DNA of 64,000 bases from Anaerolineae bacterium (GTDB lineage: Bacteria; Chloroflexota; Anaerolineae; Aggregatilineales; JAFGMM01). Every line of letters begins with the position of its first letter. The stretch's first letter is position 1. Under the pieces are notes generated by a model. The model did not search any database. It was not told the DNA's origin and saw only the letters and a program-made list of their open reading frames with translations. This document shows, in pieces, positions 60,119-64,000 of the stretch. A program made the translations under genes and the position numbers. The stretch is from assembly GCA_027494055.1 (NCBI GenBank), contig JAOSJO010000012.1, forward strand, positions 496,001 through 560,000. The letters run 5' to 3'.

Positions 60119-61733
60119 GTGCGGCTCAGCGCGCTTCTTGACGCAGCGCCGGGCGTGGTCGCACAACCGGCGCGCGACGTAGAAGTGACCGCCCCGGTTG
60201 TCGAGGACAGCCGGCAGCTCGAACCCGGCGGGGTGTTCGTCGCCCGGTCCGGCGGCAGCGCAGACGGGCACCGCTTCATCGAGGCCGCCGTCGCGGCGGG
60301 CGCGGCGGCGGTCGTCGGGGAGAAGCCGGCGGAGGCGGTCGGGCGGCTCGGCGTGCCCTATGCCCAGGTCAGGGACGGGCTGGCGGCGCTCCCCTGGCTG
60401 AGCGCGGCATACTACGGCTTCCCGGCGCGCCAACTGGTGATGGTCGGCGTGACCGGCACCGACGGCAAGACCACGACCTCACACCTGATCTTCCACATCC
60501 TGCGCGCGGCGGGGCTGCGCGTGGGCCTCATCAGCACGCTGAAGGCCGTCATCGGCGATACAGAGGCCGACACCGGCCTGCACGTGACGACGCCGCCCGC
60601 GCCTGAGGTGCAGGCGTACCTGGCGCGGATGGTCGCCGCCGGGCTGACGCACTGTGTCCTGGGGCGACCAGCCACGGGCTGGCGCAACACCGGGTCGATG
60701 CCTGTGACTTCGACGTGGCGGTGATGACCAACATCACGCACGAACACCTGGACTTCCACGGCACGTGGACGGCGTACCGTGACGCAAAGGCGCGTCTCTT
60801 CGCCATGCTGGGCGAGGCGGCGCGGAAGCCCGGCGTGCAGAAGTGGGCCGTCATCAACCAGGACGATCCCTCATGCGGCGACATCCTCGCCGCTTCCGGG
60901 CATGACGCCGCCCTCACCTATAGCGCCGCCGGCGACGACGCAGACCTCCAGGCGTCGGACATCCGCTCCGCGCCCGATGCGATGCGCTTCACGATTCTAC
61001 GCGCCACCGGCCACCTGACAGCAGCGCCGCTGCCAGGCGACTCAGACAGCGGGCTTAAGCCCGGTGTCCCCTCCGATTGGCGAAGTCTCTCCGTGGAAAC
61101 CCGATTGGCGGGTACATTCAATGTGGCGAATGTCCTCGCGGCGACAGGCGCGGCGCAGGCGCTCGGCGTCCCCGCCGAGACGATCCGGCAGGGCGTCGCC
61201 GAGACGCCCCCGGTGCCGGGCCGGATGGAGCGCATCGACGAGGGTCAGGACTTCCTGGCGCTTGTGGACTTCGCGCACACGCCCAACGCGCTCCGGCGCG
61301 CCCTTGAGGCGGCGCGCGCAATGGCCGGTCCGGGCGGGCGCGTGATCCCGATCTTCGGGAGCGCCGGCCTGCGCGACCGCGCCAAGCGCCGCCTGATGGC
61401 GGTGACCTCGGCGGCGCTGGCCGACCTGACCGTGCTCACCGCCGAGGATCCGCGCACTGAGTCGCTTGCGGCAATCCTGGCAGACATGGCGGACGGGTGT
61501 GTCAGTCAGGGCGGCGTGGAGGAAAGACTTTCTGGCGCGTCCCGGACCGGGGCGAGGCGCTGGCCTTCGCGTGCCGGCTGGCGCGCCCTGGCGATGTGGT
61601 GATCGCCTGCGGCAAGGGGCACGAGCAATCGATGTGCTTCGGGACCACCGAATACCCCTGGGACGACCGCGCAGCGTTGCGCGCGGCGCTGCGCGGCGCG
61701 CCCCTGCGCACGCTCCCGACGGCGCGCGGCTAA
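60119..61733 (+). CDS. murE: UDP-MurNAc tripeptide synthetase-like Mur ligase (frameshifted)
   Basis: This cytoplasmic ligase adds the third residue to the peptidoglycan stem peptide. The ATP loop VGVTGTDGKTTTSHLIF is at about 112; then VMTNITHEHLDFHGTW, VDFAHTPNALRRALEAA and CGKGHEQSM follow. The end lacks the usual DNPR motif for diaminopimelate, and the acceptor amino acid cannot be told. Breaks lie at about 60660-60664 and 61518-61526. GTG 60119 has AGGAGG upstream. The total of about 537 residues is long because of an insertion in the middle domain. Confidence 0.87.
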
Positions 61734-62114: not shown

Positions 62115-63086
62115 CTAGCGATAGAACCGCGTGCGTGTGTCGTCGGGCTTGCCGTCAGGCGATGCATGGTAGGTGCGCGGCGTCGCCGGGCGCTCGACGT
62201 AGGACTGGATCGCGCCGCTGTATGCGCGCATGGCGTAAGCGTTGCTGTACGACGGGCGCGGCTTGGGCGCGGGCCGCGTGCTTGACGCGCCGGGCCAGTT
62301 GGGCACAGCGGTCGGGCGCTCCTCGTCAACCGGCTCGTAGGTCAGTTCCTCGTCCTGTTCTTCCGCGTCATTCGCGTCATCACGGTCATCCACCGACACC
62401 GAGGGCGCGGCGGACCCCACAGATGACGCATACCGGGCGGCGTTGTTGTACGGCGGCCAGGTGCTCGTCCGGGTCTGCGACACGCGGTTGGGCCGCGAAA
62501 TTGGTCGCGGGGCCGGGCGCGGCGCGGCCAGCGGCGCTTGCGCCTTCGGCTGCGCGCGGCCAAACCACCGCGCGTGCCCCACGCCGAGCGTAAACAGCCG
62601 GTCGCCCGCGACGCCGACGGTGCCGATGATGAGCACGCGCGTGAGCCACACCAGCACGGCGACGAAGATCGGCACCACCGTGACCAGCGTCCCGCGCGCA
62701 ATGACCTCGTTGCCAAGCGGGCGCGCGAGCAGCGCGTTCGTCACCGCCCACCAGGTCATCGCCGCGTTCATTGTTGCGCCAACGAGCCACGCGCCGAGCA
62801 GGTACCAGACCTCTTTCGGTTCGTCGCGCCCCTGCTCCGGCGTGAAGAGCCGCGCCAGGCCGGCGAAGTCGATGGCGCAGAACGCGACCGCCAGAATCGA
62901 CGCCCAGTTGACGCCGACAGCCTGCACGCCGCCGATCAGGGTATAGAGCGCGTACTCGGTCGTGGCGAAGTTGAACAGCTCGAATGCCGCCAGCGCCGCG
63001 ACCAATATGACGCCAAACACAAGGCCGCGCTGGAGCCTCCAGGGCTGCCGGCCGAAGCTGCTTCGATTGGGGTAGATGTACGCCAT
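62115..63086 (-). CDS. Multi-helix membrane protein with disordered tail
   Basis: This protein has 323 residues. Helices are seen at about 20-42, 60-75, 92-113 and 130-156 (VVPIFVAVLVWLTRVLIIG). The last 140 residues are rich in Pro, Arg, Ser and Tyr and low in structure. No family is recognised. The promoter on its strand is TTGACA-17-TACAAT, with a palindrome TAGAACTTACGTTCTA at the start point (63207-63222). Confidence 0.65.
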   Translation of the reverse strand: MAYIYPNRSSFGRQPWRLQRGLVFGVILVAALAAFELFNFATTEYALYTLIGGVQAVGVNWASILAVAFCAIDFAGLARLFTPEQGRDEPKEVWYLLGAWLVGATMNAAMTWWAVTNALLARPLGNEVIARGTLVTVVPIFVAVLVWLTRVLIIGTVGVAGDRLFTLGVGHARWFGRAQPKAQAPLAAPRPAPRPISRPNRVSQTRTSTWPPYNNAARYASSVGSAAPSVSVDDRDDANDAEEQDEELTYEPVDEERPTAVPNWPGASSTRPAPKPRPSYSNAYAMRAYSGAIQSYVERPATPRTYHASPDGKPDDTRTRFYR

Positions 63087-63206: not shown

Positions 63207-63257
63207 TAGAACTTACGTTCTAGTGTCGATTGTAGTACATCTGTTCTGGATTGTCAA
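63207..63257 (-). promoter_or_regulatory. Minus-strand promoter with GAAC-N4-GTTC operator
   Basis: On the minus strand TTGACA (63257-63252) and TACAAT (63234-63229) have a 17-base spacer. The perfect palindrome TAGAACTTACGTTCTA (63207-63222) covers the expected start point. It fits the GAAC-N4-GTTC type bound by LexA in Gram-positive bacteria. Confidence 0.7.
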
Positions 63258-63289: not shown

Positions 63290-63656
63290 TTGACCAAACG
63301 GCGCGCAAAGGCTATAATTGTGATTAACTAAATCGAGATTATTCTTCCGTGAAGGAAGGGTGCCGACGTGCAGGTTTGCATGTGTATAAGGCGGGGGCGC
63401 TGTTACCCTCGCCGGGACCGATGAGCCATACATGATGGCTTCTTAACGGGCTTCCTCAGAGGGTGACGCCGTCTCCGCCGCTGTAGACGCAGTCTGCAGC
63501 CCGGTCGCTGGGGTGACCCTCTTTTGTTTACAGGCGACCGCCGCTGCGTGAGGGGGGTCGCCTTTCTTGTCCCCCGCTTCTCGGAGCCGAAACGATCACA
63601 CCATCGCGTAAGATACGCACCGCGCGTGTGTCAGGTCCTGCGGAGGACGAAGCGAA
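63290..63656 (+). promoter_or_regulatory. Promoter and structured leader before the cysteine synthase gene
   Basis: TTGACC (63290-63295) and TATAAT (63313-63318) with a 17-base spacer. The leader of about 330 bases has several hairpins: GGCGGGGG against CCCTCGCC near 63390, AGCCAT-ATGGCT near 63424-63440, and GCTGTAGAC-GCA-GTCTGCAGC at 63480-63500. Two terminator-like stems follow: AGAGGGT (63458-63464) with ACCCTCT (63516-63522) and T-run, then GGCGACC (63533-63539) with GGTCGCC (63556-63562) and TTTCTTG. No known riboswitch motif is recognised. Confidence 0.55.
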
Positions 63657-64000
63657 ATGAGTATCTCGCCCAACTTGACGATAGAAACGACACGCCCGCC
63701 GGTCGCCAGAACCCCGGTGACCTGGCCGCCTCAGATCGGGCCAGGCGCGGACATCGCGGCGCTGGTGGGCAATACGCCGCTGTTGCGGCTTCCCAAAGTC
63801 ACGGCGCACCTGCCGCAAGACGTGGAAGTCTACGCCAAGGCAGAGTGGTACAACCCCGGCGGCTCGGTAAAGGACCGCCCGGCGCTGAACATCATCCGCG
63901 CGGCGGAGCGCTGCGGCCACCTGCGCCCCGGTGTGACGCTGCTCGACAGCAGTTCCGGCAACATGGGCATCGCCTACGCCATGCTGGGCACGGCGCTGGG
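63657..64000 (+). CDS. Cysteine synthase-like PLP enzyme (partial)
   Basis: This gene runs off the right edge. ADIAALVGNTPLLRLPKV is the usual opening of O-acetylserine sulfhydrylase-type enzymes. YNPGGSVKDRPALNII holds the PLP-binding Lys, and DSSSGNMGIAYAML holds the substrate loop. The first 30 residues are an extra polar extension. CysK, CysM and cystathionine beta-synthase are not separable from this part. ATG 63657 with GGAGGACG upstream. Confidence 0.9.
   Translation, partial: MSISPNLTIETTRPPVARTPVTWPPQIGPGADIAALVGNTPLLRLPKVTAHLPQDVEVYAKAEWYNPGGSVKDRPALNIIRAAERCGHLRPGVTLLDSSSGNMGIAYAMLGTAL

Follow-up and report, generated by a model that had tools for sequence, protein, structure and literature searches.

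In classical trp, his, leu and thr attenuators, a leader peptide carries the regulatory codons, helices 2:3 and 3:4 form as alternatives, and a terminator stands before the operon. The amino-acid attenuators in Rfam cover His, Leu, Thr and Trp; they may have originated in the gammaproteobacteria, and the motifs were thought to occur mostly there (PMC3766115). A cysteine case, uORFC-8-2, has been proposed as a ribosome-mediated transcription attenuator in Rhodobacterales, where it occupies the cysS leader (PMC8632094). In Actinobacteria (Mycobacterium, Propionibacterium and Bifidobacterium; PMC1262725), Cys leader peptides have been described that lack terminators, and translational control of the cysteine uORF genes of M. 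smegmatis is mentioned, with reference to Canestrari 2020, in PMC13236596.

We describe here a leader located in a 64,000-nucleotide stretch of an Anaerolineae genome (the window), which is very probably a ribosome-mediated, trp-type transcription attenuator in which charged tRNA-Cys reports the cysteine supply. In the open-licence literature, we found no report of such an element in Chloroflexota. Leader-peptide attenuation and Cys leader peptides are already known; this widespread family of Cys attenuators, its host group (Anaerolineae) and its regulon appear to be new.

A structured leader upstream of cysM

The leader and the gene that follows it comprise these features:

63290-63318, + strand: sigma-70-type promoter, TTGACC-17-TATAAT, with 11 of 12 consensus bases matched; transcription start predicted near 63325.
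63351-63359, + strand: Shine-Dalgarno-like GAAGGAAGG, of which part is paired in an upstream hairpin; 8 nt separate it from the uORF start.
63368-63424, + strand: leader-peptide uORF (GTG...TGA), MQVCMCIRRGRCYPRRDR; its peptide core C-x-C-[LMIP]-x-R-G-R is common to relatives.
63377-63385, + strand: regulatory Cys codons UGC (63377) and UGU (63383), at uORF positions 4 and 6 (the CxC pair); a third Cys codon, UGU, is at 63401.
63390-63410, + strand: region 2, antiterminator 5' arm, GGCGGGGGCG-C-UGUUACCCUC, from folding and arm comparison.
63459-63479, + strand: region 3, antiterminator 3' arm, GAGGGUGACG-C-CGUCUCCGCC; its 5' half doubles as an arm of terminator 1.
63458-63529, + strand: terminator 1, AGAGGGU (63458-63464) with ACCCUCU (63516-63522, region 4) and U-run UUUUGUUU to 63529, from switch folding and from own arms outdoing swapped arms across relatives.
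63533-63569, + strand: terminator 2, GGCGACC (63533-63539) with GGUCGCC (63556-63562), then UUUCUUG, from folding; many relatives also have a second terminator.
63657-64000, + strand: cysM, first gene of the operon, a CysM-type cysteine synthase (PALP fold) of 334 aa that extends past the window end.

From the end of the -10 element to the cysteine-synthase ATG (63657) there are 338 nt, in agreement with the first-pass annotation, which had seen a consensus-like promoter some 330 bases before the gene; in the promoter scan, the 1 kb yielded 3 promoter-like sites, versus 0.3 expected in shuffles. That the leader is long and structured is likewise borne out: the RNA from 63320 to 63660 folds at -150.2 kcal/mol (z = -3.2) and that from 63320 to 63580 has z = -4.1, with no dinucleotide shuffle as low in either case. 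No Rfam 15 covariance model, riboswitches and T-box included, matched this leader or 20 relatives at gathering score; the first-pass annotation had likewise seen no SAM-I, SAM-II, SAH, cobalamin or T-box consensus, and the Rfam hit that would have refuted it did not appear.

A simple terminator scan picked a single local site within the leader (63503-63518); with 2 sites over the 1 kb and 1.1 expected, this does not exceed chance, and the case for the terminators is thus drawn from the comparison with relatives. Two terminators do stand in series, as annotated, but the first is a long-range stem (63458-63464 with 63516-63522) and not the local hairpin picked by the scan.

As the predicted transcription start lies about 43 nt 5' of the uORF and a Shine-Dalgarno sequence is present, the uORF is not leaderless. 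Its GTG start sits in a weak hairpin. The Shine-Dalgarno sequence sits in a predicted hairpin, UUCUUCC/GGAAGGG (63340-63362), which could limit uORF translation as a second layer of control. Elsewhere in the window, a divergent minus-strand promoter (TTGACA-17-TACAAT, 11/12; 63229-63257) precedes a 323-aa membrane-protein-like ORF at 62115-63086, and a MurE-like protein, named by eye, is split between overlapping ORFs of 201 aa and 295 aa that lie in different frames (60119-61602), a reading of the sequence that suggests a frameshift in the gene or in the assembly.

A family of leaders in the Anaerolineae and their predicted regulon

A plain DNA similarity search of 61 genomes, done before any uORF was considered and hence an unbiased lead, gave two short collinear matches in one genome (G028) and one in another (G049), both distant relatives in the same order. 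Both leaders have a Cys-codon short ORF, two complementary arms and a U-run, as at the window locus; the former stands 5' of a cysM-Mov34-ThiS/DUF4395-thioredoxin-MoeB operon and the latter 5' of a rhodanese. A match of this first search in G016 (L010/L035) lies inside a gene and is due to chance; the genuine G016 element is elsewhere in that genome, 5' of cysE.

An exact pattern (CxC[LMI]xRG plus the RGR bases) identified 22 elements in 21 of the 154 genomes of the order, versus 4 for the reversed pattern. All 22 have a start codon, and the gene downstream encodes a cysteine synthase, DUF4395 or a rhodanese (the DUF4395 call for L066, a member of family f4, was made by eye from sequence). Allowing 2 mismatches in a loose 20-base pattern proved useless, since the reversed control was matched as often. 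Over 84,980 species, a stricter pattern returned 46 stretches: those in Chloroflexota, Anaerolineales included, have a uORF and a sulfur gene, and the others (Mycobacterium, Acidovorax, Streptomyces and further genera) have no short ORF or are intragenic, with no sulfur gene downstream. A sequence titled Bacteroidetes (L114, JAPUDW010000340.1) has a leader and a cysteine synthase identical to those of G080, a genome of the Chloroflexota order, and is on this likeness probably a mislabelled bin. A covariance model built from 31 sequences had matches in 68 of 154 genomes at the level of the order and in 85 of 396 at that of the class. When 400 genomes of the phylum were scanned, no credible match came from beyond the class; the two that did arise there (G632 and G754) lack Cys codons and are put down to chance.

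A sulfur or cysteine gene lies downstream of 117 of the 118 unique matches with both Cys codons; this count, like that of the codons themselves (Cys at both places in 118 of 118), is not fully independent, because the codons are part of the search pattern and the model, the matches kept were chosen for TGY at both places, and the gene references were taken from the hits. The remaining match is weak, lies on the opposite strand in the window and has no such gene downstream. The downstream genes comprise about 81 cysteine synthases, 13 DUF4395 genes, 10 rhodaneses, 8 of nitrite/sulfite reductase type and 2 serine acetyltransferases, together with one O-acetylhomoserine sulfhydrylase, one Sulf_transp and one Cons_hypoth698, these last three assigned on Pfam alone because the gene references came from the hits.

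DUF4395 genes (L135, L235 and others) are repeatedly first in, or after, regulated operons, a position that would give this family, whose function is unknown, a link with cysteine/sulfur metabolism. In family f30, two tandem Cys attenuators precede a sulfite/nitrite-reductase-type gene, in L222 (2218-2315 and 1998-2097, both on the minus strand) and in L172 (1218-1319 and 1501-1599); in L222, a GCCTGGGA-TCCCAGGC-TTTTTT terminator lies between the two uORFs. The window operon encodes a CysM-type synthase and Mov34/JAMM-like, ThiS-like (ending in GG), DUF4395, thioredoxin-like, glyoxalase-like, peroxiredoxin-like and ThiF-rhodanese proteins, names without Pfam support having been given by eye from sequence. 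By its predicted products it has a mycobacterial-like cysM-mec-cysO-moeB arrangement and resembles the mycobacterial CysO-CysM-Mec-MoeZ route.

Across the family, only the coding core and the pairing arms are conserved in sequence, and the loop between them varies both in length and in sequence. This bears on the idea of a metabolite-binding riboswitch, or of a small RNA with its own terminator, in which the uORF would be fortuitous: a long stable structure with two terminators would suit such an element, but the confined conservation, the lack of an Rfam match here or in the 20 relatives and the constant position 5' of sulfur genes make it scarcely tenable. The riboswitch-like sensor implied by the first-pass annotation is replaced by ribosome-mediated attenuation, the leader peptide having been overlooked at that stage, and its other suggestion, a free-standing small RNA with its own terminator, found no support.

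Mutually exclusive helices

In most members, the antiterminator 5' arm starts inside the RGR codons and extends beyond the stop; the window uORF has seven codons beyond the core, which span this arm. The 3' arm lies 60-100 nt further downstream, and its 5' half is the 5' arm of terminator 1, whose partner arm abuts the U-run. Several families have a second U-run-ended stem after terminator 1, as at the window locus. Some members have no clear U-run at terminator 1; a U-run terminator before the first gene is clear in most.

We compared the energy of each helix formed with its own partner to that formed with partners exchanged between genomes (5000 permutations). Own arms gave -13.8 versus -9.9 kcal/mol for swapped arms in the distal part of the antiterminator, and -16.8 versus -11.8 kcal/mol in the terminator, with 0 of 5000 permutations in each case, counts that are not strict probabilities since the sequences are related; the outcome was unchanged with 21 representatives. 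In a fixed-register alignment, 84% of cells are paired, versus 46-53% when it is slid. At the wobble position of the Gly codon, the pair formed with region 3 is GU, UG, AU, GC or UA, a covariation which, as read from the aligned sequences, is beyond what the peptide can explain. As to conservation in related genomes, on which the first-pass annotation had made its reading depend, both sequence and structure are kept and the arms covary.

The same helices bear on translational attenuation or reinitiation as in the mycobacterial cysteine uORFs, whereby a stalled ribosome would free the cysM start site. The precedents are the Mycobacterium cys genes with cysteine-rich leader peptides and no terminators (PMC1262725) and the translation attenuation in M. 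smegmatis cited in PMC13236596; but here intrinsic terminators with U-runs and co-evolving arms lie between uORF and gene, and the uORF stop (63424) is 232 nt from cysM, and we regard this mechanism as very improbable.

Switch folding, in which only the RNA outside a modelled ribosome was folded (leading edge 12 nt after the start of the A-site codon), gave for 27 members 8.9 terminator pairs with the ribosome at the stop versus 2.9 with it stalled at the first Cys codon. The mean difference is 6.0 pairs, versus 0.45 in shuffled leaders, and the switch amounts to at least 3 pairs in 18 of the 27; the six members of g20 keep the terminator as the winning fold in all modelled states. A pairing score that took in whatever partner the bases just 5' of the U-run had was dropped as too blunt. 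At the window locus, terminator 1 pairing goes from 0 in the stalled state, with about 20 antiterminator pairs, to 10.9 at the stop, where terminators 1 and 2 are each fully formed. In the stalled states, region 4 is released and binds the far (3') arm of terminator 2, a link through which the two terminators switch together; CGGUCGC (63502-63508), considered as an anti-terminator-2 arm, had no support, region 4 filling that role. With no ribosome, the antiterminator is the favoured fold at this locus and no strong 1:2 hairpin forms; termination there would thus need efficient uORF translation. The 1:2 hairpin arms, GUCUGAAG/CUUCAGAC in families f4, f5 and g20 and GUCUGAG/CUCAGAC in Anaerolineales, are not evident at the window locus.

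The leader peptide and the proposed mechanism

The peptide core CxC[LMIP]xRGR is conserved, with the stop codon usually directly after it: R is found in 97 and G in 114 of the 118 kept matches, the residues around CxC vary freely, and some clades have CCC or CACCC runs. The second codon of the CxC pair (63383-63385 in the window) is UGU in every member, including 33 from UGC-permitting patterns, the first being UGC or UGU; a 1:2 hairpin accounts for this in some clades only.

One might speculate that the peptide itself is the sensor, its CxC-xx-RG(R/S) tail causing regulated nascent-chain arrest or its CxC binding metal or persulfide, and that the RNA switch follows from this and not from uncharged tRNA-Cys. 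The conservation of R and G beyond the Cys codons, the constant UGU and the stop next to the core would fit. However, the RG codons form the antiterminator 5' arm, with a Gly wobble that covaries with region 3, so that much of the RG conservation is explained by RNA pairing; moreover, the CCC/CACCC runs look like codon counting, and the residues around CxC vary freely. We consider this quite unlikely. A fuller version, in which the CxC-[LMIP]-x-R-G-(R/S) nascent chain with its invariant UGU second codon would sense free cysteine, sulfide/persulfide or metal and be coupled to the linked tandem terminators, the freed region 4 disarming the second, also seems unlikely to us.

In trp-type attenuation, the reading that we favour, translation of the cysteine-containing leader peptide probably decides whether the terminator forms. 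A ribosome would translate the uORF as RNA polymerase proceeds along the leader. Given ample cysteine, the ribosome would reach the stop and cover the codons of the antiterminator 5' arm, leaving region 3 free for region 4, and terminator 1, then terminator 2, would end transcription before cysM. With cysteine short, it would stall at the CxC codons, its leading edge just before the antiterminator 5' arm, which begins 13-14 nt past the first Cys codon; the antiterminator would form, and since region 3 would be occupied and the freed region 4 could take the 3' arm of terminator 2, both terminators would fail and the cysteine operon would be transcribed. This reading is based on the uORF and its conservation, on alternative helices that co-vary, on the U-runs and the predicted switch, and on the genes with which the element is associated; from these we infer translation of the uORF, termination, and cysteine as the signal. 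The cysteine/serine-sensing attenuator first suggested for this leader is thus strongly supported for cysteine by the conserved Cys-codon uORF, the mutually exclusive helices and the sulfur/cysteine regulon; serine has no support.

Comparison with known systems

The element provides a cysteine regulon predicted from DNA for a widespread, little-studied class, covering cysteine synthases, sulfite reductase, serine acetyltransferase, sulfur transport, rhodanese and DUF4395. In Chloroflexota, remote from the gammaproteobacteria, it would add cysteine biosynthesis to the processes under leader-peptide transcription attenuation; it would be a new Rfam family, and is open to direct test in a surrogate host.

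The locus has a leader ORF with Cys codons, predicted to be translated, exclusive helices that share one arm, and a U-run terminator. With the trp, his, leu and thr attenuators, the element shares the regulatory codons, the alternative helices with a common arm and the terminator before the operon, and it differs from them in amino acid, phylum, sequence and structure. Conserved Cys codons, a terminal U-run and proposed transcription attenuation are common to uORFC-8-2 (PMC8632094), but the latter lies 5' of a cysteinyl-tRNA synthetase gene in alphaproteobacteria, with tandem Cys codons at 14-15 and another structure, whereas the Anaerolineae element precedes genes of biosynthesis, sulfite reduction and sulfur transfer, has its Cys codons at 4 and 6 in the window, and ends in CxC-xx-RGR. 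The actinobacterial leaders also place a Cys-codon uORF 5' of cysteine operons, and the mycobacterial cysO-cysM-mec resembles the window operon, as does the CysO-CysM-Mec-MoeZ route (PMC3227635). Those leaders, however, have leaderless uORFs with cysteine runs near the stop, a translational mechanism and no terminators found, whereas the uORF of the window locus is led by a Shine-Dalgarno sequence and followed by an antiterminator and two intrinsic terminators, which sets it apart from the leaderless, terminator-free polycysteine uORFs of mycobacteria.
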